From NCBI GenBank assembly GCA_030535715.1, contig JAUNRL010000008.1, positions 1 to 15,846 on the forward strand: a DNA stretch of 15,846 bases, given 5' to 3'. The notes under the pieces are model-generated. The model saw only the letters and a list, made by a program, of their open reading frames with translations, did not search any database and was not told the DNA's origin. This DNA comes from Bacillota bacterium. GTDB lineage: Bacteria > Bacillota > Clostridia > Peptostreptococcales > Anaerovoracaceae. A program made the translations under genes and the position numbers. This document shows positions 1 through 15,846 of the stretch, one piece after another; the first letter of the stretch is position 1, and each line of letters opens with the position of its first letter.

Positions 1-678
1 TTCAGCATCGGAAGTGTGAACTTCACAGAGACGGTAGTCCTCGGCTGGATCATCAGCATTATCATTCTGATCTTCGCTTTCTGCGCGACGAGAAATATGC
101 AGCGCGTACCCAGGGGAGCTCAGCTGGTGGGCGAGCTCCTGGTCGGCTTCATGTATAAAATGGTTCGCGATACCATGGGAGAAATCGGCGAGAGGTTCAC
201 TCCTTACATGGGCACGTTGATCGTCTTTCTGGGATTCGGCAGTATGCTGGGTCTGCTGGAGCTGCGGCCCATCACGGCGGATCTGAACTGCACCGGTCCG
301 CTGGCGCTGGTTTCCTTCGTTATGATTCATTACAACTCCATCAGAGCAAGAGGATTCATCGGATACAACAAGCACATGGCTTCGCCTTATCTGTGGATGT
401 GGCCTCTCAACCTCATGAGTGAGTGCATGTTCCCCGTTACTCTGGCCTGCCGGATTTTCGGCAACATCTTCGCGGGCGTCATTGTCATGACGCTGGTCTA
501 CAGCGGACTGGCCACCGCATCTCACGCACTGGGTTCGGTCGTTCCGTTCTTCCAGATCGCTTTCCCGCTGCCGCTGAACTTCTGGTTCGACATGTTCGAG
601 CCTATCCTGCAGGCATACATCTTTACTATGTTAACAATGGTGTTCATCGCCACCGGCAGAACCGTTGACGAGGACTAA
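1..678 (+). CDS. atpB: F-type ATP synthase subunit a (5' end outside window)
   Basis: Membrane subunit a of the Fo motor, which forms the ion half-channels next to the c-ring. The frame is open from base 1 and reads FSIGSVNFTETVV before a possible GTG at 16. This matches the usual N-terminal part of subunit a, so the gene almost certainly starts upstream and the GTG is internal. 225 residues are visible. The essential stator arginine lies in the motif LACRIFGN (codon at 451-453), the counterpart of E. coli Arg210. Several hydrophobic segments follow the family pattern, ending with the helix containing FEPILQAYIFTMLTMVF. It is followed 28 bp later by atpE, in the standard atp operon order. Assignment is secure; only the start is missing. 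Confidence 0.97.
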   Translation, partial: FSIGSVNFTETVVLGWIISIIILIFAFCATRNMQRVPRGAQLVGELLVGFMYKMVRDTMGEIGERFTPYMGTLIVFLGFGSMLGLLELRPITADLNCTGPLALVSFVMIHYNSIRARGFIGYNKHMASPYLWMWPLNLMSECMFPVTLACRIFGNIFAGVIVMTLVYSGLATASHALGSVVPFFQIAFPLPLNFWFDMFEPILQAYIFTMLTMVFIATGRTVDED

Positions 679-706
679 CCGTTAAAGGAATAAGGAGGAT
701 ATTACA

Positions 707-967
707 ATGACTGGATTCACTGGAGCAGAATTGATTGCCGCAATGTCATCGTTGGGCGCAGGTATCGCGATGGTAGCCATGATCGGTGTCGGAGTCGGCA
801 TTGGCTTTAACGCCGGTAAGACTGTCGAAAGCACCGCGCGTCAGCCGGAGGCGCAGGGCACCCTGCTGAAGCTGATGCTGATCGGCGTAGCGCTGACCGA
901 GACGGCCGGTATTTTCGCGCTGGTTATCGCGATCATGCTACTGTTCGCCAATCCGCTTATGCCGTAA
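707..967 (+). CDS. atpE: F-type ATP synthase subunit c
   Basis: Hairpin proteolipid that oligomerises into the rotating c-ring. 86 residues, two transmembrane helices joined by the conserved polar loop ARQPEAQG (44-51). The ion-binding carboxylate is Glu65 in LTETAGIF. Aligned without gaps to the Ilyobacter tartaricus c subunit as I remember it, the positions that bind Na+ are Ile32 (Gln there), Leu63, Glu65, Thr66 (Ser there), Ala67 (Thr there) and Phe70 (Tyr there). The sodium signature is therefore only partly present and the coupling ion cannot be decided from sequence. Helix 1 has the glycine-rich GVGVGIG with Val28 where Pro is common. A strong AAGGAGG at 692-698 precedes the ATG. Confidence 0.97.
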   Translation: MTGFTGAELIAAMSSLGAGIAMVAMIGVGVGIGFNAGKTVESTARQPEAQGTLLKLMLIGVALTETAGIFALVIAIMLLFANPLMP

Positions 968-1016
968 AAAGGCGGAAGGGATGCACAGATGACAGATGAA
1001 GGAAGGAGGAAATACG

Positions 1017-1532
1017 ATGGTTGAGTTGCATCAGAGTTTGATTAAATTTGACTGGACATCACTGATGGTCGTCCTGAACCTTCTCATCCTGTATATCATC
1101 CTGAAAAAATATTTCTGGGAAAAGATCAGAAAATTCATGACCGACCGTGAGAATGCGGTGAAGGATGCTTTTGACAGCGCAGAGGCCATGAACCGGCGTG
1201 CCGATGAGAAGATGCGCAACTACAGCGCGCGGATCGCGAACGTCGAGGAAGAGGGCCGTGAGATCATCCGTCAGGCGAAACAGCAGGCGGATGCTCAGGC
1301 ACAGGAAGTTCTGGCGGACGCGCGGCAGCAGGCCAGCGCAATGATGGTCAAAGCCGAAAAGAACATTGAGCTGGAAAAGGCAAAGGCAATAGAGGAGATG
1401 CGGCAGGAAATCGGATCTCTGGCTTTGCTTGCGGCGGAGAGAATCGTCGGCAGAGAGATTGAGAACATCGGACAGGAAGCCATTGTTGACGATGTCATCA
1501 ATCAGGCAAGGAGCACGGGATGGCAGAATTAA
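1017..1532 (+). CDS. atpF: F-type ATP synthase subunit b
   Basis: Peripheral-stalk subunit that holds F1 against the rotating shaft. One N-terminal membrane helix (about residues 14-32, SLMVVLNLLILYIILKKYF) is followed by a long charged, alanine-rich helix typical of the b-subunit coiled coil. An in-frame ATG at 996 would give 178 residues. I chose the ATG at 1017 (171 residues) because AGGAGG at 1004-1009 lies inside the longer version and is correctly spaced for 1017. The end overlaps the start of atpH by 13 bp, which suggests translational coupling. Confidence 0.95.
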   Translation: MVELHQSLIKFDWTSLMVVLNLLILYIILKKYFWEKIRKFMTDRENAVKDAFDSAEAMNRRADEKMRNYSARIANVEEEGREIIRQAKQQADAQAQEVLADARQQASAMMVKAEKNIELEKAKAIEEMRQEIGSLALLAAERIVGREIENIGQEAIVDDVINQARSTGWQN

Positions 1533-2059
1533 CAGTAGGTATGACCTATGGGACTGCACTGTTCGAAGCCGCCTCGGAGCAGGGTAAGCCGGAGCAGATA
1601 AGGGAAGAGGCCGGACAGATCCTCGAAATCCTCGATAAAGAGCCGGATCTCCGTGCTTTCGTCAATTATCCGGCTATCTCCGCGGAGGAGAAGAAGAAGG
1701 TCCTGCGGGATATTTTTGAAGGAAGGATCTGCGAGGAACTGCTGAACTTCCTGTATGTGCTGATCGACAAGCGGCGCATTGGACAGTTCGAGCGGATCAT
1801 CCGAGTCTACCGGGATCTGGCCGACCATGAAGAGGGCGTGGCCTACGGCATGGTCTATTCTGCTGTGCCTCTGGACGGGGGGTGGCTGGCGGAGATCGAG
1901 GAACAGACCTCGAAGCTTCTGCAGCAGAAGGTCAGACTGACCAATGGAACAGATCCACATCTTCTGGCGGGGTTCAGGATCCTTGTGGAAGGCAAGGTGA
2001 TCGATGCTTCCTATAGAAAGAGATTTGACGAGATGGCAAGTCAATTGAACATATCCTAG
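1520..2059 (+). CDS. atpH: F-type ATP synthase subunit delta
   Basis: Delta (OSCP) subunit linking the peripheral stalk to the top of the alpha3beta3 head. 179 residues, the normal length. The N-terminal helical domain (AELTVGMTYGTALFEAA, about 1-105) and the C-terminal region ending with LLAGFRILVEGKVIDASYRKRFDEM match the family; the LAGFRI...G..IDAS pattern is its most conserved segment. AAGGAG at 1508-1513 lies inside the end of atpF. Next to atpF and atpA as expected. Confidence 0.95.
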   Translation: MAELTVGMTYGTALFEAASEQGKPEQIREEAGQILEILDKEPDLRAFVNYPAISAEEKKKVLRDIFEGRICEELLNFLYVLIDKRRIGQFERIIRVYRDLADHEEGVAYGMVYSAVPLDGGWLAEIEEQTSKLLQQKVRLTNGTDPHLLAGFRILVEGKVIDASYRKRFDEMASQLNIS

Positions 2060-3637
<1,578 letters not shown>

Positions 3638-3715
3638 CGGCCGTGGAGCCGGAGTTGCCTTTGCAGAAGCAATATCAGCGCCCGGCGGATAATCTGAGAA
3701 AAAGGAGGTGAGCGC

Positions 3716-5999
<2,284 letters not shown>

Positions 6000-6000
6000 C

Positions 6001-6441
6001 ATGGCAGTAAACAGCGTAAAACTGGAAATCATCACCCCGTCCAAACTGTTTTACCGGGGTGAGGTGGATCTGGTGATCGTGACGACGCTGGATGGAGATG
6101 AGGGCTTCATGGCCGGTCACTGCTGGGGCTGCAAGCTGCTGGATATCGGAGAACTCTGGATTCAGGAGAAGGGCGCTGATAAGAATGACTGGCGGGTTGC
6201 CGCGCTGGCCGGAGGGTTTATCGAGATCAAGGACAGCGTCATCATCTACACCGACGCGGTGGAGTGGTCCGAGGACATCGACATGGAGCGGGCCCTCAGC
6301 CAGAAAGCCATGGCGGAAGACTGGCTGACAGAGCACGAGGAATCCGGCGATCCCAACGATGTCATCAAAGCGAAGATCATCATCGCCAAGAACCTGACCC
6401 GGAGCAACGTGGCCAACGGCGGCGTGCGGCGCCGCTATTGA
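6001..6441 (+). CDS. atpC: F-type ATP synthase subunit epsilon
   Basis: Rotor subunit that links gamma to the c-ring and often acts as an inhibitor. 146 residues, slightly long for the family. The N-terminal beta-sandwich is visible (KLEIITPSKLFYRGEVDLVIVTTLDGDEGFMAGH), followed by a helical C-terminal part from about residue 93. The frame is open upstream inside atpD, but the ATG at 6001, one base after the atpD stop, gives the family N-terminus; its ribosome binding site is weak, suggesting coupling to atpD. Odd: the segment after GDEGFMAGH, usually PLLT-like, is CWGCKLL with Cys41 and Cys44. A GC-rich hairpin (6419-6435) covers the last codons without a U-run, so no terminator is visible after the operon. 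Confidence 0.93.
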   Translation: MAVNSVKLEIITPSKLFYRGEVDLVIVTTLDGDEGFMAGHCWGCKLLDIGELWIQEKGADKNDWRVAALAGGFIEIKDSVIIYTDAVEWSEDIDMERALSQKAMAEDWLTEHEESGDPNDVIKAKIIIAKNLTRSNVANGGVRRRY

Positions 6442-6582
6442 AGCCTGGCCGGAGAAAGACAGTATACGTGGCGGGGAGAGTGAGATAAAATGAGAAGGGG
6501 AAGGAAATCCCGGAGGATAAGACATCAGCGCAGCGCACAAAGACAAAGCGGTTAGCGCGGACGTAAGGAACAGGAGGGTAAT

Positions 6583-6957
6583 ATGGAACAGAGATTTTAC
6601 ATCTGCAAACACTGTGGAAACATTATCGCGAAACTGAAGGATTCCGGCGTGCCGGTCGTCTGCTGCGGAGAACCTATGGCGGAGCTCATCCCGGGAACTA
6701 CAGACGCAGCCGTGGAAAAGCATGTGCCGGAGTATTCCGTCGAGGGGAACATGGTTAGGGTGAAGGTGGGATCCGTCGAGCATCCTATGACGTTGGAGCA
6801 CTATATCGAGTGGATCCTGCTGCACACGAAACAGGGGAACCAGAGGAAGGTGCTGACGCCGAAGGACAAGCCGGAAGCCTGTTTCGCCCTGTGCGACGGA
6901 GACGAGGTGGAAGCGGTCTACGCCTACTGCAACCTGCACAGTCTCTGGAAGAGGTAA
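6583..6957 (+). CDS. dfx: Desulfoferrodoxin (superoxide reductase)
   Basis: Cytoplasmic iron protein that reduces superoxide to hydrogen peroxide without making oxygen, typical of anaerobes. 124 residues, the normal two-domain length. The N-terminal desulforedoxin domain has all four rubredoxin-like iron ligands: Cys8, Cys11, Cys27 and Cys28. The C-terminal domain has the square-pyramidal iron site: His47 in EKHVP (with Glu45 and Lys46), His67 in EHPM, His73 in HYI, and Cys116 and His119 in CNLH. All ligands are intact, so the enzyme is predicted to be active. An AGGAGGG at 6572-6578 sets the start. It lies 141 bp after atpC; the gap shows no clear promoter or terminator. Confidence 0.96.
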   Translation: MEQRFYICKHCGNIIAKLKDSGVPVVCCGEPMAELIPGTTDAAVEKHVPEYSVEGNMVRVKVGSVEHPMTLEHYIEWILLHTKQGNQRKVLTPKDKPEACFALCDGDEVEAVYAYCNLHSLWKR

Positions 6958-6983
6958 GCCCGGATCTTACAGCATGGCTCAAA

Positions 6984-7018
6984 AAACGGGGGTCAGCGAT
7001 CATAGCTGATCCCCGTTT
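6984..7018 (+). terminator. Stable hairpin between dfx and the P-type ATPase-like gene
   Basis: A 14-bp stem pairs AAACGGGGGTCAGC (6984-6997) with GCTGATCCCCGTTT (7005-7018) with one G-T wobble and a 7-base loop. On the + strand only three Ts follow, so it would be a weak terminator or a processing/attenuation hairpin for the dfx transcript. On the - strand the stem is followed by six Ts (A-run 6981-6986), which is the better terminator shape, yet no confident - strand gene ends here. It ends two bases before the ATG at 7020. Confidence 0.5.
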
Positions 7019-7019
7019 G

Positions 7020-9020
7020 ATGCCGGGGATGTTGAATAGCGGCGGCCTCCGCCCGGAAAGGGTGGTGTACGAACCGGTGCGGGCGGGATATAATATGGTC
7101 ATGGCGGACAGCAGCGGAAAGACAAAAGAAGAGAAGAAACTGCGGGCGTTCTTTGAAGAGATCGCGCGGGACAGAAATGAGATGGCGCTGGCAGGGCTGA
7201 AAAAGCGGATGATCCTGTCGGTGATCTTCCTGGTGGTTCAGTGCGCTCTTCTGCTGGCGGGCATCGAGATGGAAGTGCCCATGGATTTTCAGGCTGCGCT
7301 GATGCTGATCCCCCTGATCGCGCTGAACAGCCGCTGTTATATCGACGGGTTCCAGTCGATTCGCACCCGGCAGCCGGAGAAAAATATCCTGGCGGCCATC
7401 GGATCCATTCTGGCCATCGTGAGCTTTCATTTTGTTGCGGCATCGGTGGTGCTCACCACCATGGCGCTGTGCCGGTACTGCGAGGCCTATGTACGGTTTC
7501 GACTCAACAGCCATCTGAATGATCTGGTGGAAGCGGAACCGGATGACGGGAAACTGCATGAGGGGGATATTCTGACCATTGGCGCAGGGGAGATAATCCC
7601 TGTGGACGGTGTGATCCTGTCCGGGGGAACGATGATTGACGAAGAACTGATTACCGGAGAGCGGATCCTTTCCGGGAAGAAGGACGGGCATGTGGTGTTT
7701 GCCGGCACGGGAAACGTGGGCTCGGAGATTTCCATTCGGGTGATGCATACGGGAAAGGACCGCATGATCGCGCGGCTCATTGACCATATCAGCCAGGCGA
7801 CCCTGACACGTTCTCCCAGAGCGGCGAAGGCAGAGAAGACTGCCCGCTGGTTTGTCGCGGCCGTCCTGGCGGCGGCGGTGATCTCCACCGCGGTCTGGAC
7901 GTTGATGGGGGTGGAGTTCAAGCTGGCCACCCTGACGGGGATTGCTGCCCTCATCATCGCAAATCCCTACGCTTTTTCCGTAGCGCTGCCCATGTCGGTT
8001 CTGGCCTCCGTTGTCCGGGGTGCGGAGCAGGGAATCCTGATCCGTTCAGCGGATATTCTGGAGGATGCCCGGGACATCAATACCATCGTCATGAACAAGA
8101 CGGGAACCATCACGGCGGGAGATCCGGAAATCAGCGATGTGATCTCGTTGCGTGGGGATTTTACCCTGAAACTTGCGGGAGCTCTGGAGCGGGGCGCGAA
8201 GCATCCCTATGGCAGAATGATCTGGCAGACGGCAGTCGATCGGTATGGAGACCTGCCGGAGGGACAGATCTCCGAGTACGTCGAGGGAAGGGGAATCTGC
8301 AGTAATCTGGAAGGCAGATCCTATCTGGTTGGAAACGCCCTTTTCATGAAGGAACGTCAGGTTCCCGTGGAGGGAGAGAATATCAGAAATCTTTTTCTGC
8401 AGGGAAAGAGCGTGATCTTTTTCGCGGAGGGAAGCGAAGTCATCGGCGTTATCGCCCTGCGGGACATGCCGAAGCCGTCCAGCCTCAAGGCCATCACCCT
8501 AATAGAGGGAATGGGCATTGATGTGGGCATGCTGACCGGAGACAGCCGGCAGACGGCGGAGGCTATTCGGGGAGAACTGGGTATCGACCATATCTTCGCG
8601 GATATCCTTCCCCGGGACAAGAAGCAGATTGTGGAGAAGATCCGGCGGGAGAAAAGGAAGATCGTTGCCATGGTGGGGGACGGCGTTCACGACGCGCCGG
8701 TCATCGAGGCGGCGGATCTTGGCATCGCCATAGGAACAGGAAAGGATATCTACATCGGGCCGGGGGATATCATTCTGATAAGCGATGATCTGCTGGATGT
8801 TGTGCGGGCCATGCGGCTGGCGCATCTGACCTCGCGGAACCTGCGGCAGAGTATTGCCTTTGCATACATCTACAACATCGTTGCGGTACTCTGCACCACG
8901 GTGGTGATCGCCGCGTTCTCACAGATTACCATGGCGCCTGCCGTGGCTGCGCTGATCATGTGCGCCAGTCAGATTCTGGTCGTGTTCAATACGCTGCGCA
9001 TCGGGCGGGCGCACCTGTGA
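7020..9020 (+). CDS. Degenerate P1B-type (copper/heavy-metal) P-type ATPase homologue, phosphorylation Asp replaced by Asn
   Basis: About 666 residues with the full P1B-ATPase layout: membrane segments at about 64-155, actuator domain at about 180-240, two further helices, P and N domains, and a final helix pair at about 617-660. No N-terminal metal-binding domain is present. Key motifs are altered. The phosphorylated Asp of DKTGT is Asn359 (NKTGT). The CPC metal motif is Asn315-Pro-Tyr317. TGES is TGER (212-215). GDGVNDAP is GDGVHDAP (Asp554, His557). Retained are TGD at 506-508, the HP pair at 395-396 and the GxG at 423-425 that bind ATP in the N domain, the YN pair, and Met647/Ser650 of the last helix. 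The frame is uninterrupted, so this looks like a maintained pseudoenzyme rather than decay. No ribosome binding site is clear: ATG at 7020, 7095 or 7101 are all possible, and the frame also opens upstream into dfx. Function is not predictable; a sensor or regulatory role is inference. Confidence 0.82.
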   Translation: MPGMLNSGGLRPERVVYEPVRAGYNMVMADSSGKTKEEKKLRAFFEEIARDRNEMALAGLKKRMILSVIFLVVQCALLLAGIEMEVPMDFQAALMLIPLIALNSRCYIDGFQSIRTRQPEKNILAAIGSILAIVSFHFVAASVVLTTMALCRYCEAYVRFRLNSHLNDLVEAEPDDGKLHEGDILTIGAGEIIPVDGVILSGGTMIDEELITGERILSGKKDGHVVFAGTGNVGSEISIRVMHTGKDRMIARLIDHISQATLTRSPRAAKAEKTARWFVAAVLAAAVISTAVWTLMGVEFKLATLTGIAALIIANPYAFSVALPMSVLASVVRGAEQGILIRSADILEDARDINTIVMNKTGTITAGDPEISDVISLRGDFTLKLAGALERGAKHPYGRMIWQTAVDRYGDLPEGQISEYVEGRGICSNLEGRSYLVGNALFMKERQVPVEGENIRNLFLQGKSVIFFAEGSEVIGVIALRDMPKPSSLKAITLIEGMGIDVGMLTGDSRQTAEAIRGELGIDHIFADILPRDKKQIVEKIRREKRKIVAMVGDGVHDAPVIEAADLGIAIGTGKDIYIGPGDIILISDDLLDVVRAMRLAHLTSRNLRQSIAFAYIYNIVAVLCTTVVIAAFSQITMAPAVAALIMCASQILVVFNTLRIGRAHL

Positions 9021-9068
9021 GAGTGCTTCATTTCCTTAAATAGTCGAAAAATTTCAGCACATTTGTTA

Positions 9069-9098
9069 TTTACATCCCGTCGCATCTGGAAGTATAAT
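9069..9098 (+). promoter_or_regulatory. Promoter of the aminotransferase gene
   Basis: TTTACA (9069-9074), an 18-bp spacer and a perfect TATAAT (9093-9098) form a good sigma-A type promoter. Transcription would begin near 9105, leaving a leader of about 120 nt. The leader contains modest inverted repeats (CTGAAAGGC at 9131-9139 against GCC at 9151-9153 and TTTCAG at 9159-9164; CAGC at 9162 against GCTG at 9173). I do not recognise a known riboswitch in it. Confidence 0.7.
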
Positions 9099-9226
9099 AA
9101 TTCTGTAAAGAGACTTCTCAGAGTTCATTTCTGAAAGGCAGTTCTGGGTCGCCTGATTTTTCAGCTGGTTTTGCTGCGGAATGAATATGGGCAGACGTCA
9201 TAGTGTTTTTATAAGGAGGTCACAAG

Positions 9227-10615
9227 ATGACTGAAAGAAATATGCGGAAAGCTTTGGAAGAAGCGAAGAGAGTCGTAGGAATGATTGAGGCTGACGAGTT
9301 GACGGCGGAGCAGAAAAAGGCGATCCATGACGATTCTATCAAAAACTTCAATGAGAACGTCAATCCCGGCTGGCTGGAGTACAGAAAGTCTGTATCCACT
9401 GATGCGGCATTCGTTGAGTGGGAAGACGAGGGCGATGTATTTAGAGATCTGAACGGCGTTGAGTTCATCGACTGCCTGGGTGGATTCGGAATCTTTGCCT
9501 GCGGCCACGGCAATCCGGAAATCAAGAAGACCGTTATGGCTCAGCTGGACAGATACTCCCTGCACTCTCAGGAACTGGTTGACCCGCTGAGAGGTTACCT
9601 GGCAAACCTGCTGGGCATGATCACTCCGGGAGACCTGCAGTACTGCTTCTTTACCAACGGCGGTGCTGAAGCTGTCGAAATGGCGCTGAAACTGGCCAGA
9701 CTGGCCACCGGCGGCAGATGGTACATCTCCACCGTAGGCGCGTTCCACGGCAAGTCCATGGGCGCTATTTCCATGGGCGGCAAGGGCGCATACAGAGAAG
9801 ACTATATCCCGATGATTCAGCAGGTACAGCACGTCAGGTACGGCGATGCGGATGCGGCGAGAGTTGCGATTGAGAACCTGGAAGCGGTCGGCGAGAAGGT
9901 TGCGGGCCTGATCGTAGAGCCGATTCAGGGCGAAGCCGGCGTCATGATCCCGCCGGATGGCTATCTTGCTGACCTGAGAAAGATCTGCGACGATCACGGC
10001 GTAGCCCTGATCTTCGACGAGATCCAGACCGGTCTCGGACGTACGGGCACCCTGTGGAGATGCGACCACGAAGGCGTATGCCCCGACATCATGACCTATG
10101 GTAAGGCTTCCTCCGGCGGCCTGGTACCGATCACCGGTATCATCGCAAGACCCTGGACCTATGAGAAGTCCGGCATCGGCACGGGACAGGAAGGCAAGAT
10201 GTTCGAGAATCCGTGGATCCTGGGATCCCCGACCTTCGGCGGCAACCCGCTGGCCTGTGCGGCATTCATCTCCACCATCAGATACATGCTGGAGAACGAT
10301 CTGCCGGGACAGTCCAAGGCAAAGGGCGATAAGTATCTGGCCGGTCTGCAGAAGCTGCATGAGAAGTATCCGACCGTTCTGACCACGTTCAGAGGATCTG
10401 GCATGCTGATCTGCATGGAATTCCCAACAGACGAAATCGGCCACGAAGTCACCAAGGCTTTGTTCGCGAGAAACGTCATGACGGCAGGTACGTTGGTCAA
10501 TGCGCAGACTGTCCGTATCGAGCCGCCTCTTGTACAGGCTGACGAGACCATCGATAAGGTTCTGGCTGCTCTGGATGAGGCTCTGGCAGAAGTCAAGGAA
10601 GCGTACAAACTGTAG
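9227..10615 (+). CDS. patA: Putrescine aminotransferase-like class III aminotransferase
   Basis: PLP-dependent class III aminotransferase, 462 residues. It resembles E. coli putrescine aminotransferase (PatA/YgjG) over its whole length, including NVNPGWLEYRKSV, the block EFIDCLGGFGIF, LHSQELVDPLR, GAFHGKSMGA, EPIQGEAGVM, TFGGNPLACAA and the C-terminal VRIEPPL. The Schiff-base lysine is Lys293 in YGKASSGG, and Asp264 in IFDEIQTG contacts the PLP ring nitrogen. The expected reaction is putrescine plus 2-oxoglutarate to 4-aminobutanal (giving 1-pyrroline) plus glutamate; cadaverine or another diamine could be the real substrate. GGAGG at about 9213-9217 sets the start. It has its own promoter and terminator and so appears monocistronic. 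The family is certain; the exact substrate is less so. Confidence 0.9.
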   Translation: MTERNMRKALEEAKRVVGMIEADELTAEQKKAIHDDSIKNFNENVNPGWLEYRKSVSTDAAFVEWEDEGDVFRDLNGVEFIDCLGGFGIFACGHGNPEIKKTVMAQLDRYSLHSQELVDPLRGYLANLLGMITPGDLQYCFFTNGGAEAVEMALKLARLATGGRWYISTVGAFHGKSMGAISMGGKGAYREDYIPMIQQVQHVRYGDADAARVAIENLEAVGEKVAGLIVEPIQGEAGVMIPPDGYLADLRKICDDHGVALIFDEIQTGLGRTGTLWRCDHEGVCPDIMTYGKASSGGLVPITGIIARPWTYEKSGIGTGQEGKMFENPWILGSPTFGGNPLACAAFISTIRYMLENDLPGQSKAKGDKYLAGLQKLHEKYPTVLTTFRGSGMLICMEFPTDEIGHEVTKALFARNVMTAGTLVNAQTVRIEPPLVQADETIDKVLAALDEALAEVKEAYKL

Positions 10616-10630
10616 GTTGTCAATACATAA

Positions 10631-10651
10631 GAGGGTTGCTCCGCAGCCCTC
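10631..10651 (+). other. RNA hairpin just after the aminotransferase stop
   Basis: GAGGGTTGC pairs with GCAGCCCTC (one G-T wobble) around a TCC loop. No U-run follows, so it is not itself a terminator; it may protect the 3' end of the mRNA upstream of the true terminator. Confidence 0.5.
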
Positions 10652-10661
10652 CCAAACTGTA

Positions 10662-10697
10662 GACAAAGGCCCTCATGAAGAGGGGCCTTTTTGTCAT
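10662..10697 (+). terminator. Intrinsic terminator of the aminotransferase gene
   Basis: AAAGGCCCT (10665-10673) pairs with GGGGCCTTT (10682-10690, one T-G wobble), followed by TTG; the pairing can extend outward through GAC/GTC with a small bulge. Five Ts at 10688-10692 complete a typical intrinsic terminator. Confidence 0.85.
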
Positions 10698-10792
10698 GTT
10701 CAGAATTTAAAACAGCAGAGAAAAGAAGAGCATAAAGACGTATTTGCCTATGCGGTAGAGACAGCCTGCGATGAGAACGGACCATCCAGGCG

Positions 10793-10957
10793 TCAGTCAA
10801 ACACCAGCGAGGGGGCGGCACAGGCCCGGGTCTTCATCTCGCTGTCCAGCCTATACAGGCCCTTGGCATCGGTGCCGAAAAGCTCGAATTTCTGGACGTC
10901 GTTGTCCGTGTTGTCTTCCTCCCTCAATAGAACGAGTTCATCGGTGCAATACTGCTC
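10793..10957 (-). pseudogene. Coding-like minus-strand frame lacking a normal start codon
   Basis: Read on the - strand, the frame ending with TGA at 10795-10793 translates as EQYCTDELVLLREEDNTDND, then VQKFELFGTDAKGLYRLDSE and MKTRACAAPSLVFD. Third codon positions are mostly G or C, as in the real genes here, and the acidic, mixed composition is protein-like. No ATG or GTG lies in frame upstream; a TTG at 10927-10925 would give 44 residues but has no clear ribosome binding site. I do not recognise the family. It may be a gene remnant, a small protein with an unusual start, or chance. Confidence 0.33.
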
Positions 10958-10964
10958 CGCTCTT

Positions 10965-10973
10965 ATTATAGCA
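10965..10973 (-). promoter_or_regulatory. Extended -10 element on the minus strand
   Basis: The - strand reads TGCTATAAT, a TGn-extended consensus -10, with no good -35. Transcription would start near 10957, right at the beginning of the minus-strand coding-like frame. This is the main reason to take that frame seriously. Confidence 0.4.
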
Positions 10974-11090
10974 GAAACGCTTCGCAGTGGACAGTGAAAT
11001 TCGGTAGGCGGAACGATCTGCTGGCGGACGGCCGTGGACAGCGGAGAGGGCAGATTCCCCGGAGGATCTGATGCCCGGAAGAATTTGTTG

Positions 11091-11119
11091 TTGACAAATA
11101 ATATTATATGCTATATAGT
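11091..11119 (+). promoter_or_regulatory. Promoter of the padR operon
   Basis: TTGACA (11091-11096), a 17-bp spacer and TATAGT (11114-11119). A near-perfect housekeeping promoter, with padR starting 41 bp beyond the -10. Confidence 0.85.
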
Positions 11120-11122
11120 ATT
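11100..11122 (+). promoter_or_regulatory. AT-rich dyad overlapping the padR promoter (candidate PadR operator)
   Basis: Arms AATATTATAT (11100-11109) and ATATAGTATT (11113-11122) are inverted repeats with 9 of 10 matches around GCT. The dyad covers the promoter spacer and the whole -10, where a bound repressor would block RNA polymerase. PadR-family proteins commonly repress their own operon through AT-rich dyads; assignment to this PadR is inference. Confidence 0.55.
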
Positions 11123-11159
11123 ACGCGAGAGATAACAATAGGGCAAAAAGGAGGTAAGC

Positions 11160-11507
11160 ATGGGATTTAAAATCGAGTCAAGTCTGCTCGATGCCTGCGC
11201 CCTCGCCATACTCTCGCGGGGGGATACCTACGGCTATGAGATCACACAGCAGATGAAGGAGGCCATCACCATTTCCGAGTCCACACTGTACCCGGTACTG
11301 CGAAGGCTCCAGAAGGACGGGCTGTGCCAGACCTACGATCAGCCGTATCAGGGCAGAAACAGACGCTACTACACCATCACAAAAAAAGGACGAGAAAAAC
11401 TGGCGGATTACCGGAGCCAATGGAGAGCGTACCGGCTGGCCATCGAGAAGCTCCTCGACGGCGGCCGGACAAAAGAGGAAGAAGAGAAAGGGGGAACGGA
11501 ACAATGA
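11160..11507 (+). CDS. PadR family transcriptional regulator
   Basis: Small winged-helix repressor, 115 residues. The PadR signature is clear: LDACALAILSRGDTYGYEI (10-28) for helices 1-2, the recognition helix ESTLYPVLRRLQKDGL (40-55), and the wing GRNRRYYTITKKG (65-77), then a short C-terminal dimerisation helix. This is the short PadR type usually found with DUF1700 proteins. AGGAGG at 11149-11154 precedes the ATG. The stop overlaps the next start as ATGA. It probably autoregulates through the dyad in its promoter; the inducing signal is unknown, and envelope stress is a common proposal for such modules. Confidence 0.93.
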   Translation: MGFKIESSLLDACALAILSRGDTYGYEITQQMKEAITISESTLYPVLRRLQKDGLCQTYDQPYQGRNRRYYTITKKGREKLADYRSQWRAYRLAIEKLLDGGRTKEEEEKGGTEQ

Positions 11508-12202
11508 CCAGATCCGAATTCATACAGGACCTGAGGGATGAATTACGGAAACTTCCGCCGGAAGAGATCGTGGCGGCCACGGAATTCTATGAAGAATACT
11601 TCGATGATGTACTGGAATCGCTGGACACGGCGGGCATGACCGAAGAAGAGGTCCGGCAGCTTCGTGAAACGACGGAACAGAGAATCGTCAGGGAAATCGG
11701 CAGCCCGAAAGCGGCGGCAAAGCAGATCCGTACGGAATATGCCTCACGCATTCTGGAGGGGGAGCCGTCAGCCGGAGGGGAGAAGGTGTCCGTGGGACAT
11801 AAGATCTCTGCCGTCTGGTGGGTAATCATCGGCATCTGCAGTGCCCCGGTGTCCATCCCGATCGCCATCGCCATCGGCGGAGCGGCGATCGGCATTATCG
11901 TCTCCGCGCTGTCCGTCATGTTCAGCGTCTATGCGGGCATCATTGCTGTCGCATTAGCCGGCACAGGCTTCATTATTGCCGGATGCGCGGCCCTCGGCAC
12001 AGCCGTTTCCACCGGAGTCATGTTTATCGGCGGAGGACTGATCGCTGTATCCGCTTCGGCGGCAGCCGGCGTCGGCGCCTTCATCGGGACCAGAGAACTG
12101 ATCAAATGGCTGGCCAGGCTGGCCAGAAGGCTCAACGAAAAGAGAAAAATGAGAAAATACAATAAGCTGAAAGGAGGTGCCGGATATGAGAGCGCTCAGT
12201 AA
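11504..12202 (+). CDS. DUF1700 family membrane protein
   Basis: 232 residues. The N-terminal cytoplasmic part, EFIQDLRDELRKLPPEEIVAATEFYEEYFDD, is the hallmark of DUF1700, and is followed by the acidic helix EEEVRQLRETTEQRIVREIGSP. The middle and C-terminal part (about 105-210) is a run of hydrophobic, glycine/alanine-rich membrane segments, ending in a basic tail. The ATG shares ATGA with the padR stop, so the two are translationally coupled; the frame is open further upstream but that part overlaps padR. Molecular function is unknown for the family; it is typically encoded between a PadR regulator and a DUF4097 protein, as here. Confidence 0.9.
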   Translation: MTRSEFIQDLRDELRKLPPEEIVAATEFYEEYFDDVLESLDTAGMTEEEVRQLRETTEQRIVREIGSPKAAAKQIRTEYASRILEGEPSAGGEKVSVGHKISAVWWVIIGICSAPVSIPIAIAIGGAAIGIIVSALSVMFSVYAGIIAVALAGTGFIIAGCAALGTAVSTGVMFIGGGLIAVSASAAAGVGAFIGTRELIKWLARLARRLNEKRKMRKYNKLKGGAGYESAQ

Positions 12203-13076
12203 CCTGGCAAAATTCTTTATCATCTGTGCGGCGGTCTTCTTTGTCGGTCTGGTGTGCGCCATCGCCGGTGCGGCCGGCGGCGGAGTCGGCGGCATCGACA
12301 AGCTGGCCGAAAAGCACGACTGGATTCAGGGAAGTCCGGGTGAGAAGTGCGTGACCTGCCGGACGGTGAGAGAGTTTCATTCCATCGAGGCCACCGGTGA
12401 CGGGGATCTGTGGATCGTCGGGAAGGATTTCTATAAAAACGATAGATGGCTTGCCGATCATGACCTGCAGGAGCAGATCGGGCAGGATCTCATCGGGCCG
12501 GGCAGCGTATGCGTCATCCGCGGCGAGAACGTGGAGCAGCCGGAGATCACGGTGAAAAACGGGGTATTAACGATAAATGCAGGACAGCATGATTTCAGCG
12601 GCATCAGCTTTGATGCCTCCGGCGCATCCTGGCCGAAGGTGATCGTCTGCGTGCCGGACGGGGTGCTGCAGTCCCTGACGGTAAGCGGGCAGAGCGGAGA
12701 CATCAGCTGTCTGGGCTGCGCCTGGGACAGCGCGAAGATCCAGATGAATTCCGGTGATGTGGACATGGAAGGCGTGAAGAGCGGCGGCCTTGTCATCGAT
12801 CTGGATTCCGGCGACGCGGAGATTCAGGGCAAGTTTATGGCGGGAACGCAGATTCAGACGACTTCCGGCGATGTGGAGATCGACACGGTTCTCCCGAAGA
12901 CGGAGTATGCGCTGGAACTGCGGGCTGAAGCCGGGGATATTACCATCAAGGAGCGGGGAAAGGAGGATCGCGAGTATGACGATGTGCCTGCTGCCGTGAC
13001 GGAAAGCGGCGGGCCGCACCGGATCGCGGTGATGACGAGCGCCGGGGATCAGGAGGTCAGTTTCCAGGCAGACTGA
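12186..13076 (+). CDS. DUF4097 family protein, membrane-anchored
   Basis: 296 residues. An N-terminal hydrophobic segment (about 8-30) acts as signal or anchor. It is followed by an extracytoplasmic beta-repeat domain of DUF4097 (putative adhesin) type, seen as repeated turns such as SGQSGDISCLG, NSGDVDMEG, DSGDAEIQG, TSGDVEIDT and EAGDITIKE at about 20-residue spacing. A GTG at 12177 is in frame, but it overlaps the AAGGAGG (12171-12177) that serves the ATG at 12186, so I chose the latter. It overlaps the DUF1700 gene by 17 bp. Two CxxC pairs (Cys55/Cys58 and Cys175/Cys178) are unusual. Function is unknown. Confidence 0.87.
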   Translation: MRALSNLAKFFIICAAVFFVGLVCAIAGAAGGGVGGIDKLAEKHDWIQGSPGEKCVTCRTVREFHSIEATGDGDLWIVGKDFYKNDRWLADHDLQEQIGQDLIGPGSVCVIRGENVEQPEITVKNGVLTINAGQHDFSGISFDASGASWPKVIVCVPDGVLQSLTVSGQSGDISCLGCAWDSAKIQMNSGDVDMEGVKSGGLVIDLDSGDAEIQGKFMAGTQIQTTSGDVEIDTVLPKTEYALELRAEAGDITIKERGKEDREYDDVPAAVTESGGPHRIAVMTSAGDQEVSFQAD

Positions 13077-13099
13077 CGGAGCCGCGTTAATCATTCCAC

Positions 13100-13124
13100 A
13101 AGGGGCCGGAGGGCCCTTTTTTTT
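13100..13124 (+). terminator. Intrinsic terminator of the padR operon
   Basis: AAGGGGC (13100-13106) pairs with GCCCTTT (13113-13119) around a six-base loop, followed by an uninterrupted run of eight Ts (13117-13124). It lies 24 bp after the DUF4097 stop. Confidence 0.88.
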
Positions 13125-13183
13125 CGTTTTTCCGTGGAGCGGGCAGTTCGTGAGGGCTGGAAGGAGGAAACAGAAAAAAACGG

Positions 13184-13212
13184 TTGACAGGTTAGGAATC
13201 TCTAACTATAAT
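13184..13212 (+). promoter_or_regulatory. Consensus promoter of the feo operon
   Basis: TTGACA (13184-13189), a 17-bp spacer and TATAAT (13207-13212): a perfect match to the housekeeping consensus. Such a strong promoter implies that control is by repression, which fits the operator-like dyads in and after it. Confidence 0.92.
13191..13206 (+). promoter_or_regulatory. Operator-like dyad 1 in the feo promoter spacer
   Basis: GTTAGGAATCTCTAAC, with arms GTTAG and CTAAC, fills the spacer between -35 and -10. The half-site resembles the GTTAG of DtxR-family operators; it does not resemble a Fur box. Confidence 0.65.
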
Positions 13213-13221
13213 GAACATGAA

Positions 13222-13237
13222 GTTAAATACATCTAAC
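13222..13237 (+). promoter_or_regulatory. Operator-like dyad 2 downstream of the feo transcription start
   Basis: GTTAAATACATCTAAC, the same length and ends as dyad 1, with its start 31 bp further on (about three helical turns). One arm position differs (A for G). Confidence 0.6.
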
Positions 13238-13241
13238 AAAC

Positions 13242-13257
13242 GTTAGCTATATCTAAC
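13242..13257 (+). promoter_or_regulatory. Operator-like dyad 3 in the feo leader
   Basis: GTTAGCTATATCTAAC, extending to perfect 7-bp arms ACGTTAG and CTAACGT. It starts 20 bp after dyad 2 (about two turns). This is the best-formed of the three and lies fully inside the transcribed leader. Confidence 0.65.
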
Positions 13258-13285
13258 GTCGATCGGCGGAGGAGATGACAGGCGA

Positions 13286-13513
13286 ATGAACCTTTTGGAA
13301 GCGGAAGAAGGAAGGACTTATCAGGTGAAAGAGATCAATACAGACGATCCGGAGATGACGTCGTTTCTGTTCCGGTTGGGCTGTTATTCCGGCGAACCGG
13401 TGACGTTGATCTCAAAAAAGAGAAAAGGATGCGTCGTTGCCATCAAGGACGGAAGATACAGCTTCGACCATCTGCTCGCGTCCGCAGTCGCAATTGAAGA
13501 CGGCGGGAGATGA
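13286..13513 (+). CDS. feoA: FeoA-type ferrous iron transport protein
   Basis: Small cytoplasmic SH3-like protein that supports FeoB. 75 residues, the normal length. The family core is seen as FRLGCYSGEPVTLISKKRKGCVVAIKDGRYSF, where the LG...G..V pattern followed by a hydrophobic strand is typical, and then LLASAVAIE. GGAGGAG at about 13268-13274 lies 11 bp before the ATG. It is first in the feo operon, 50 bp before feoB. Confidence 0.9.
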   Translation: MNLLEAEEGRTYQVKEINTDDPEMTSFLFRLGCYSGEPVTLISKKRKGCVVAIKDGRYSFDHLLASAVAIEDGGR

Positions 13514-13563
13514 CGCGGAGCGCACGGAGGCTGTTGATCAATGAGTAGGAGGATAAGGATATC

Positions 13564-15591
13564 ATGAGAATTGCATTTGCGGGAAATCCGAACAGCGGGA
13601 AGACAACCATGTTCAATGCGCTGACCGGAGAAAACGAACGTGTCGGAAACTGGGGAGGCGTTACCGTCGGAAAGAAGGAGGCCCCTCTGGATAAACGTTA
13701 CACCGGGGGAGAGGAGGCCGTCGCGGTGGATCTGCCGGGCGCGTATTCCATGTCCCCGTTCACGCCGGAGGAAAGCATCACCAGTGAGTACGTCCGGGAC
13801 GAACATCCCGATGCGATCGTCAATATTGTCGATGCGACGAACCTGAGCAGAAGCCTGTTCTTCACCACGCAGCTGCTGGAACTGGGTATCCCCGTTATCG
13901 TCGCACTGAACAAGAGCGATATCAACGAGAAAGAGGGGACGACCATTGACGTCGGCGCCCTTGAACAAAAGCTGGGCTGTCCGGTGGTCAAGACCGTTTC
14001 CACGGATAAAGGCAATGCCGGACTGAAGGAAGTCGCAGAGAAAGCGATTGCGCTGAAGGACAAGGGGCAGAAGGCGCCGTACCTGCAGGCGGACATCGAT
14101 CTGCACGACAAAACGGCGGTTGACGCGGAGGAGCGGAAGCGGTTTGCCTTTGTCAATGAAATCGTCGCTGCGGTGGAGACCCGCAGACTGGCCTCCAGTG
14201 AGACAACAAAAGCAGATAAGCTCGACAACGTCCTGACCCATCCGGTTTCCGGCATTCTGATCTTCGCCGGCGTCATGTTTCTGGTGTTCCGGATCTCTCA
14301 GGCGGAGGGCTTTCTGGGGCTGGGAAAAGTATTCGAGGGCCTGTTCACCGGATGGATTGAAGCCTTTCAGGGATTTGTGGAAGGTGCGATGGAGAACAGC
14401 CCGATTCTGTTGAAGACCATCATCTGCGATGGTATCATTGGAGGTGTAGGAGCGGTTGTCGGCTTCCTGCCGCTGATCATGGTGATGTTCTTCCTGGTTG
14501 CTCTCCTGGAGGACTGCGGCTATATGGCCCGCGTCAGCGCCGTACTCGATCCGATCTTCAAGCGCGTGGGGCTTTCCGGGAAATCCGTGATCCCGATTAT
14601 CGTCGGGACAGGATGCGGTGTGCCGGGCATCATGGCCTCCCGGACAATCCGGGATGAACGGGAGAGAAGAGCGACGGCGATGCTGACCACCTTCATTCCC
14701 TGCGGAGCGAAGATTCCGGTTATCGCACTGTTCGCCGGGGCGTTTTTCGCCGGCGCCGGATGGGTTGCCTTTGTATGCTACTTCTCCGGACTGATGCTGA
14801 TTTTCCTTGGCGCTCTTCTGGTCAAGGCGGTGACCGGAGCCAAATTCAGAAAATCCTTCTTTATCATGGAACTGCCCAAATGGAAGGCGCCGAGTCTGGT
14901 GCGGGCCTTCTGGTCCATGATGGAGCGGGCCAGAGCCTATATCATCAAGGCGGCAACCATCATCCTGGTCTGCAACCTGGTTGTGCAGCTCATGCAGACC
15001 TTCAACTGGAAGTTCCAGGTGGTTCCCGAGGGAATGGAGGAGACCTCGATCCTGGCAACGATCGCCACGCCCTTCGCCTTCCTGCTTATTCCGCTGGGAT
15101 TCGGCGTATGGCAGCTGGCGGCCGCGGCTGTGACCGGCTTCATCGCCAAGGAAAACGTCGTGGGAACACTGGCCGTCGTCTACGGACTGACCCGGTTCAT
15201 CGATACGGAGGAACTGGCCATGACCGGCGGAGCCAATACGGTGGCTGAGGTTATGGGTCTGACCAGTGTCAGCGCGATGGCTTACCTGTTCTTTAATCTC
15301 TTCACCCCGCCGTGCTTCGCGGCGATTGGTGCGATGAATTCGGAGATGCGGAGCAAGGGATGGCTGTGGTGCGCTACCGGTCTGCAGATGTGCACGGGCT
15401 ATACGGTGGCCTTCCTGATCAATCAGATCGGCACGCTGATTACCGCCGGTCATGTGGCAGCGGGATTCGTCCCCGGCGCCATCGCCATCCTGGTCATGAT
15501 CTTTGTGGTCGTCATGATTTCGAGAAAAATCCGGGCCCACTTCGACGAGCAGTACAGACTGCACGCGAGCGCGGCAGTCAGCGATGCGTAG
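13564..15591 (+). CDS. feoB: Ferrous iron transporter FeoB
   Basis: Inner-membrane Fe(II) importer with an N-terminal GTPase, 675 residues. G1 is GNPNSGKT (7-14), switch I is NWGGVTV (29-35, Thr34), G3 is DLPG (56-59), G4 is NKSD (116-119) and the G5 region is VSTDKG. G4 has the Ras-like NKxD form rather than the NMxD common in FeoB. The membrane part has the two Gate motifs with conserved cysteines, GTGCGVPGIMASR and FIPCGAKIPVI, and the C-terminal FTPPCFAAIGAM. AGGAGG upstream of the ATG supports the start. It lies between feoA and the Cys-rich partner in one operon, presumably repressed when iron is plentiful. Confidence 0.97.
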   Translation: MRIAFAGNPNSGKTTMFNALTGENERVGNWGGVTVGKKEAPLDKRYTGGEEAVAVDLPGAYSMSPFTPEESITSEYVRDEHPDAIVNIVDATNLSRSLFFTTQLLELGIPVIVALNKSDINEKEGTTIDVGALEQKLGCPVVKTVSTDKGNAGLKEVAEKAIALKDKGQKAPYLQADIDLHDKTAVDAEERKRFAFVNEIVAAVETRRLASSETTKADKLDNVLTHPVSGILIFAGVMFLVFRISQAEGFLGLGKVFEGLFTGWIEAFQGFVEGAMENSPILLKTIICDGIIGGVGAVVGFLPLIMVMFFLVALLEDCGYMARVSAVLDPIFKRVGLSGKSVIPIIVGTGCGVPGIMASRTIRDERERRATAMLTTFIPCGAKIPVIALFAGAFFAGAGWVAFVCYFSGLMLIFLGALLVKAVTGAKFRKSFFIMELPKWKAPSLVRAFWSMMERARAYIIKAATIILVCNLVVQLMQTFNWKFQVVPEGMEETSILATIATPFAFLLIPLGFGVWQLAAAAVTGFIAKENVVGTLAVVYGLTRFIDTEELAMTGGANTVAEVMGLTSVSAMAYLFFNLFTPPCFAAIGAMNSEMRSKGWLWCATGLQMCTGYTVAFLINQIGTLITAGHVAAGFVPGAIAILVMIFVVVMISRKIRAHFDEQYRLHASAAVSDA

Positions 15592-15639
15592 AGAGGCTGG
15601 GAGTCCCGGTTACAGCAGGATTGCAGAAGGAGGAAAAGC

Positions 15640-15846
15640 ATGAACGCAGCATCGTGGACAGCGGTCATCGCGCTGGCGCTGATCGTCTTCCTGGCTATCC
15701 GGTACCTGATCCGGGAAAAACGAAAAGGCAGCAAATGCATCGGCTGCCCCTATGCCGGAGAGTGCAGGAAATACAATCAGAGGGAAAACCCGGCGACCGG
15801 GGGCGGTGAACGGAGAGATCCGCCTGCAAAGGCCCCGAAACAGCGA
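15640..15846 (+). CDS. FeoB-associated Cys-rich membrane protein (3' end outside window)
   Basis: 69 codons are visible and the frame is still open at the window edge. An N-terminal membrane helix (about 6-23, WTAVIALALIVFLAIRYLI) and a basic stretch are followed by the cysteine cluster CIGCPYAGEC, then a proline- and charge-rich tail. This is the layout of the small FeoB-associated proteins found directly after feoB in many Clostridia; the cysteines may hand on or sense Fe(II), which is unproven. AAGGAGG at 15627-15633 precedes the ATG. It lies 48 bp after feoB with no terminator between them. Confidence 0.88.
   Translation, partial: MNAASWTAVIALALIVFLAIRYLIREKRKGSKCIGCPYAGECRKYNQRENPATGGGERRDPPAKAPKQR

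Follow-up and report, generated by a model that had tools for sequence, protein, structure and literature searches.

Described Systems Closest to the Proposed Pseudo-Pump

The phosphorylated Asp of P-type ATPases is termed invariant in the accessible part of a current review (PMC10654040). Here we describe a P1B-like P-type ATPase gene in which this residue is an Asn and whose product is called the pseudo-pump below. It lies in a stretch of 15,846 nucleotides from a Bacillota bacterium of the family Anaerovoracaceae (assembly GCA_030535715.1, contig JAUNRL010000008.1, positions 1 to 15,846 of the forward strand), which was analysed as a whole and is referred to as the window. The genome assembly spans 1.23 Mb in 221 contigs, with 90% completeness and 5.6% contamination. 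No description of a P-type family with a fixed Asn was found in the open-access PMC literature.

CopA is the best match in the PDB both by sequence (3rfu) and by predicted fold (7r0g, template modelling (TM) score 0.83). The pseudo-pump shares with it the order of the actuator (A), phosphorylation (P) and nucleotide-binding (N) domains, the membrane helices, the nucleotide-site residues, TGE in most family members, the Tyr-Asn of helix M5 and the Met of helix M6. It differs from CopA by Asn in place of Asp, xPY in place of the CPC motif, a GDGxND loop devoid of its Asn, Gln in place of the M6 Ser, the lack of an HMA domain and a score below the cut-off of the copper subfamily model. Also among the nearest solved folds is the C983S/C985S/D1027A mutant of ATP7B (7xuk and 7xun, TM 0.81 and 0.80), which is disabled at both corresponding sites, namely CPC and the Asp. 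That protein is, however, a human pump in which Ser-Pro-Ser and Ala were introduced artificially, whereas here a natural clade carries xPY and Asn. The D1027A variant of ATP7B is described as catalytically inactive in the available text of PMC7418023.

TMEM94/ERMA comes closest as a precedent; the accessible parts of two reports (PMC12134183, PMC13322241) disagree on its activity. Its fold is of the P-type and its motifs are degenerate (DKQGI, GSSANL and no TGES), and the available portion of the former report states that no ATPase activity was seen. According to the accessible text of the latter, the D427N substitution in ERMA abolished Mg uptake, and D351N and D369N are listed as inactivating. 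Unlike the pseudo-pump, TMEM94/ERMA is eukaryotic, has ten helices and retains the Asp, which is needed for Mg uptake (same excerpt of PMC13322241), whereas the family presented here lacks the Asp but possesses the GDG, TGE and ATP motifs.

A Clade with Asparagine at the Phosphorylation Site

The gene and its sites are given below, with counts for the 41 family members aligned together (alignment A2); a 42nd cluster, P0032, was aligned separately.

7020..9020, + strand: pseudo-pump gene, P1B-like, open frame of 666 codons plus stop
7470..7472, + strand: Cys151, 41/41 in the family; Gly in the canonical relatives shown (alignment A1)
7653..7661, + strand: TGE of the actuator domain (residues 212-214), Glu in 36/41
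7962..7970, + strand: Asn-Pro-Tyr of helix M4 (315-317) at the CPC position of copper pumps, aligned to the CPC of 3rfu
8094..8096, + strand: Asn359 (AAC) at the phosphorylated-Asp position, in NKTGT; read in the sequence, Asn in 41/41 and in P0032
8202..8207, + strand: HP of the nucleotide domain (395-396), 41/41
8286..8294, + strand: GxG of the nucleotide domain (423-425), Gly423 in 40/41 and Gly425 in 41/41
8535..8543, + strand: TGD loop (506-508), residues kept in 41, 39 and 39 of 41
8676..8693, + strand: GDGVHD (553-558), the canonical GDGxND minus its Asn; Asn in 0/41 at 557, Asp558 in 41/41
8871..8876, + strand: Tyr-Asn of helix M5 (618-619), retained in 41/41, aligned to the YN of 3rfu
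8970..8972, + strand: Gln651 of helix M6, 41/41; Ser in copper pumps (alignments)

The initial annotation, made from the sequence alone, described an uninterrupted frame of about 666 codons in which DKTGT had become NKTGT while the HP, GxG and TGD motifs remained, and it proposed a maintained pseudo-pump. Reading of the sequence bears out the frame, the AAC codon and each of the three motifs (for GxG, Gly at 423 and 425). Three further features, which that annotation left unmentioned, are the NPY that replaces CPC in helix M4, the reading GDGVHD for GDGxND, and the absence of an HMA domain in the domain-profile scan.

The protein belongs to the P-type ATPase fold by its PF00122 (E1-E2 actuator, 124.1 bits) and PF00702 (HAD hydrolase, P domain, 83.2 bits) matches, both above the cut-off, and by its matches to PDB folds. 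It passes the heavy-metal P-type ATPase model TIGR01525 (406.9 bits, cut-off 346.25) and misses the copper subfamily model TIGR01511 (376.7 bits, cut-off 397). Despite this fold we do not class it as a pump, because the defining Asp was tested for and is absent. The predicted model contains a complete set of domains (predicted local distance difference test (pLDDT) 81, predicted TM score 0.74), and P-type pumps stand among the best 50 of its 284 PDB matches at E <0.001. The position of the start codon is uncertain, with 7020, 7095 and 7101 as candidates, since the alignment of relatives begins at about residue 28 and pLDDT is below 50 at residues 1-34; upstream of 7020 the same frame stays open as far as a GTG at 6810.

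A search of about 5.8 billion proteins delimited a family of 42 clusters, made up of the query and 41 further ones that are 48-61% identical, beyond which identity falls to 38% and the matches are canonical DKTGT/CPC pumps. A profile search recovered the identical 42 clusters, with a drop in bit score from 961 to 671 at the edge of the family; in these searches the 7998 or 7996 candidates with the most shared words were scored and the best 120 were considered. Asn occupies the catalytic position in 42/42 clusters, and AAC encodes it in all seven genomes of the genus in which the motif can be read. The eighth Asn-type genome of this kind, G006, was classed by 58% identity over the last 253 residues, as its contig ends before the motif. 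The presence of Asn in every cluster and in several assemblies excludes chance, sequencing error or a strain mutation as its origin. The records that carry a name are metagenome genomes of uncultured Clostridiales, Firmicutes or Bacillota, of which two derive from the jejunum of goat and roe deer.

Three other candidates were set aside: P0062 has its NKTGT elsewhere and possesses DKTGT, the APKTAT rows of the motif search are matches outside the motif, and the Bacteroidia match L048 is a canonical DKTGT/CPC pump. In G047 the pseudo-pump and the adjacent aminotransferase gene occur in two copies with equal scores (contigs C23 and C34, loci L034 and L092), probably an assembly duplicate.

The loss of a catalytic residue fixed across the clade, the intact frames and the signs of purifying selection given below, for which the rate ratios are rough, are those of a pseudoenzyme. 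We lean towards a maintained pseudo-pump that is predicted to form no phosphoenzyme and to export no copper, and that likely acts as an ATP-binding membrane switch.

Catalytic, Nucleotide and Membrane Sites

Among the features of an active P-type ATPase, the phosphorylatable Asp and the complete GDGxND loop are missing (the first Asp of the loop is present in 39/41), while TGE is there. Loss of the Asp closes the known route to an aspartyl phosphate. Among those of P1B-1 Cu(I)-ATPases such as CopA, the CPC motif is replaced by xPY in 41/41, with Ser (24), Asn (16) or Asp (1) at the first place and Pro and Tyr invariant, and the TIGR01511 cut-off is not reached. The initial annotation had offered a metal sensor among the possible roles; this is less likely than it held, because both CPC cysteines are gone in all 41 members. 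A regulator or a partner of another protein, which it also named, may be the role.

The nucleotide site has fared differently. The N-domain residues that mark P1B proteins (Glu, His-Pro and GxG) are kept in 41, 41, 41, 40 and 41 of 41, and Glu390, His395, Pro396, Gly425 and Gly438 are all invariant. So are Lys360 and Thr363 next to Asn359, with Arg replacing Thr361 in 9/41 (NKRGT). The 80 invariant columns of the alignment include 13 of 18 catalytic or nucleotide positions, which were picked by hand. ATP binding by the pseudo-pump is plausible, as the nucleotide residues are retained, and the retention of the ATP pocket in both the Asn type and the shortened relatives described below is the reason why an ATP-binding membrane switch is preferred.

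In the proposed mechanism ATP would be bound between the N and P domains and its phosphate would not be transferred. The Asn would remove a negative charge facing the gamma phosphate and let ATP remain bound, which would result in a long-lived E1-ATP-like form. The membrane site, composed of xPY in M4, Tyr-Asn in M5, and Met and Gln in M6, may hold a ligand other than Cu(I). The output would be a shape change relayed to a partner protein, for which the intact copper-type pump encoded in most Asn-type genomes is a candidate, or coupled to the ligand at the re-made membrane site.

The same membrane residues are the basis of an alternative that we regard as rather unlikely, a passive ATP-gated carrier or channel in which pumping is lost and the re-made site still passes a substrate. 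It accords with the invariance of Met647 in M6 alongside Pro316, Tyr317, Tyr618, Asn619 and Gln651 (each 41/41) and with the rank of helices M1/M2 and M5/M6 among the better-conserved segments of the family. However, no substrate or pore feature was identified, and the predicted fold matches closed P-type pumps.

Pumps and Their Derivatives at the Aminotransferase Spot

The surroundings of the pseudo-pump gene in the window comprise the following features.

6583..6957, + strand: desulfoferrodoxin-like gene, upstream neighbour; PF01880 and PF06397 above the cut-off, TIGR00320 below
9069..9098, + strand: promoter-like TTTACA-18-TATAAT between pseudo-pump and aminotransferase; TATAAT aligned in 15/16
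9227..10615, + strand: class III aminotransferase resembling putrescine aminotransferase, the regular neighbour on the downstream side; NF008570 607.7 bits, just below the cut-off of 612

The aminotransferase gene is present in 40 of the 49 genomes of the genus (E up to 1e-120). An Asn-type gene lies directly upstream of it on the same strand in all seven genomes in which the place can be viewed (G000, G001, G003, G006, G011, G047 and G060); in the remaining Asn-type genome, G012, the contig ends before the aminotransferase position. Canonical pumps with DKTGT and CPC stand upstream of the aminotransferase in G045, G046 and G051, others lie 2.4 kb (G043) and 5.6 kb (G009) away, and that of G017 is cut by a contig end. 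At this spot the N domain is missing from the pump of G050, and the actuator domain from the forms found in G013, G018, G049 and G053. In 19 further loci no pump was found by profile among frames of at least 90 aa, and G016, G052, G064 and G041 show less than 1 kb upstream; loci L095, L109 and L114, with almost no DNA upstream of the aminotransferase, stood outside this profile search.

A search with the four short forms, in which again the candidates with the most shared words were scored and the best 120 considered, ranked at the top eight clusters of 457-569 aa that lack PF00122 (P0126-P0133), P0127 matching the G013 form and P0128 the G053 form. These proteins are close kin of the pseudo-pump and share with it the aminotransferase spot in four genomes, a changed CPC, altered in all actuator-less forms, and the ATP-site residues, retained in 8/8 shown. 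They differ from it in the absence of PF00122 and in the retention of DKTGT in seven of the eight clusters, the exceptions among the short forms being NKLGT in P0128 and G053 and DKRGT in the G049 form. P0130 is predicted to fold as well (pLDDT 80), and in its model the P and N domains match CopA domains 3a1c and 3a1d, which are AMPPCP- and ADP-bound. Lower in the same search list, P0214 lacks PF00122 and has an HMA domain. A TGE match in the stalk of a canonical pump is not the actuator motif and was left unused.

A 61-row pump tree with 24 of the 42 clusters recovers the Asn type as one clade (support 100), which joins the actuator-less forms in a group of 32 rows (100), and this group is nested in the canonical pumps of the aminotransferase spot (99 and 93). 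A careful 35-row tree with 12 Asn-type clusters concurs (20 rows at 100/100, within 24 rows at 100/99). Orthologues with DKTGT in closely related genomes, which the initial annotation named as the sign of a strain-specific mutation or an error, are found in part: G045, G046 and G051 of this genus carry canonical pumps at the aminotransferase spot. All three fall outside the Asn clade, however, and thus the Asp to Asn change is not strain-specific.

The aminotransferase tree also unites the seven Asn-type genomes in a single clade (100/100). Three changes are needed on it to explain the four actuator-less genomes, and well-supported branches force two of the three; either repeated loss of the actuator domain or transfer of pumps between lineages is thus probable. 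In the pump tree G053 and G049, both on long branches, stand beside the Asn clade (95/85), and the approximately unbiased test rejects their grouping with G051, G017, G050 and P0139 (p 0.009). The aminotransferase tree instead places G049 and G053 with G051, G050 and G017 (95/99), and the long branches may be the cause of this disagreement. The second Asn, that of NKLGT in G053, may have arisen separately or together with that of the Asn clade.

The desulfoferrodoxin-like gene stands just before the pseudo-pump gene in G000 and G003 and is divergent in G012 (L113; L112); no match to it was found in the other loci compared. An operon of the pseudo-pump with the aminotransferase is not supported, since the latter has its own promoter: in 16 upstream stretches compared, TATAAT of the promoter-like site is aligned in 15, two of which come from genomes without a pump at the spot. 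No Rfam family was detected in the window at gathering thresholds. Downstream of the aminotransferase the window encodes, in this order, a PadR-type regulator, a HAAS-domain protein and a DUF4097 protein (11160-13076), and then a FeoB ferrous iron transporter (13564-15591; TIGR00437, 450.0 bits).

Two of the genomes with actuator-less forms also encode Zn-type P1B pumps, L147:5130-6872 in G049 and L148:5141-6913 in G053 (frames of 581 and 591 aa), each immediately downstream of a regulator-like gene. They retain CPCAM, DKTGT, TGE and GDGxND and are devoid of HP and of the greater part of the nucleotide domain, a loss also seen in the G050 copper-type pump at the aminotransferase spot. The canonical relative P0141 is labelled Lentihominibacter, from which we draw no firm name.

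Maintenance, Partnership or Decay

Seven Asn-type genes give a ratio of nonsynonymous to synonymous substitution rates (dN/dS) of 0.105-0.436 in 20 of 21 pairs, one being undefined; these values are only rough because dS is near saturation (proportion of synonymous differences 0.57-0.76), and they are not near 1, as decay would give. When neutral change of the window's gene was simulated to 25-33% divergence, 10-13 stops arose on average and never fewer than 2 (100 runs each), whereas the seven real genes, intact at about 46-81% identity, contain none. Together with the Asn fixed in 42 clusters, this supports the maintenance proposed in the initial annotation.

These data bear on a second alternative, which is unlikely, that of a slowly decaying relic, in which copper export has shifted to another pump and this copy is being lost. 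Damage at the aminotransferase spot is indeed varied, with the actuator domain lost in four genomes, the nucleotide domain lost in G050 and no pump there in 13 genomes, and change is very fast: the actuator-less forms of G049 and G053 share 44% identity at the pump and 98% in the aminotransferase. A relic would nevertheless hardly keep the Asn, xPY and the ATP motifs invariant across a family at about 50% identity, and the lack of stops and dN/dS below 0.44 speak against it as well.

Another CPC/DKTGT copper-type pump is encoded in six of the eight Asn-type genomes (G003, G001, G012, G047, G060 and G011), so copper export need not depend on the pseudo-pump. In a third alternative, which we consider improbable, the pseudo-pump would be a dominant partner of this pump: by pairing it would control how much of the pump is present or how active the pump is, and would itself sense no ATP. 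Human ATP7B offers a parallel, as it dimerizes and one mutant alters another within dimers according to the available text of PMC7418023. On the other hand, no such pump was seen in G000 and G006, both incomplete assemblies (G000 shows one partial Zn/Cd-like pump), and mere pairing would not require an invariant ATP site. That the protein is still a working pump, with Asn converted to Asp post-translationally or another residue phosphorylated, is very improbable, for although the TGE Glu, Lys360, Thr363, Asp558 and mostly TGD are kept, CPC and the GDGxND Asn are also lost, Thr361 is Arg in nine members, actuator-less relatives occur at that spot, and Asp-to-Asn changes inactivated the pumps named in the accessible part of PMC13322241.

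Several observations weigh against a maintained ATP-binding switch. The genes upstream of the pseudo-pump vary, no clear functional partner emerges among the neighbours, and the aminotransferase has its own promoter. The dN/dS of the Asn type exceeds that of the canonical pumps at the spot (0.030-0.166 with the G050 form included, 7 of 21 pairs computable). The pseudo-pumps of G000 and G003 are 60% identical, against 96% for their aminotransferases, and such fast evolution points to weaker constraint than in a working pump. The TGE Glu, needed only for dephosphorylation, is kept in more members than a dead cycle requires. Finally, for the rise in ATP affinity that an Asn at the site of the phosphorylated Asp brings, no account was found in the open-access literature.

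Conclusions

A single spot in one genus of gut bacteria holds canonical pumps, forms devoid of the actuator domain and the Asn type, which makes the steps of conversion testable on natural proteins. Tentatively, a copper pump at this spot may have given rise to non-pumping proteins by separate routes: Asp to Asn in a whole body, loss of the actuator domain, and loss of the nucleotide domain. Two of these would keep the ATP pocket and could be pseudo-P-type ATPases that read ATP at the membrane; we hold this broader picture with less confidence than the switch itself. Source databases give a name to 3 of the 42 clusters, that of heavy-metal or cation-translocating P-type ATPase, and for this reason inventories of metal pumps in these genomes probably err at the pseudo-pump. 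If true, the existence of a 42-cluster clade with a fixed Asn and a re-made metal site would mean that the scaffold of a pump can persist as something else.
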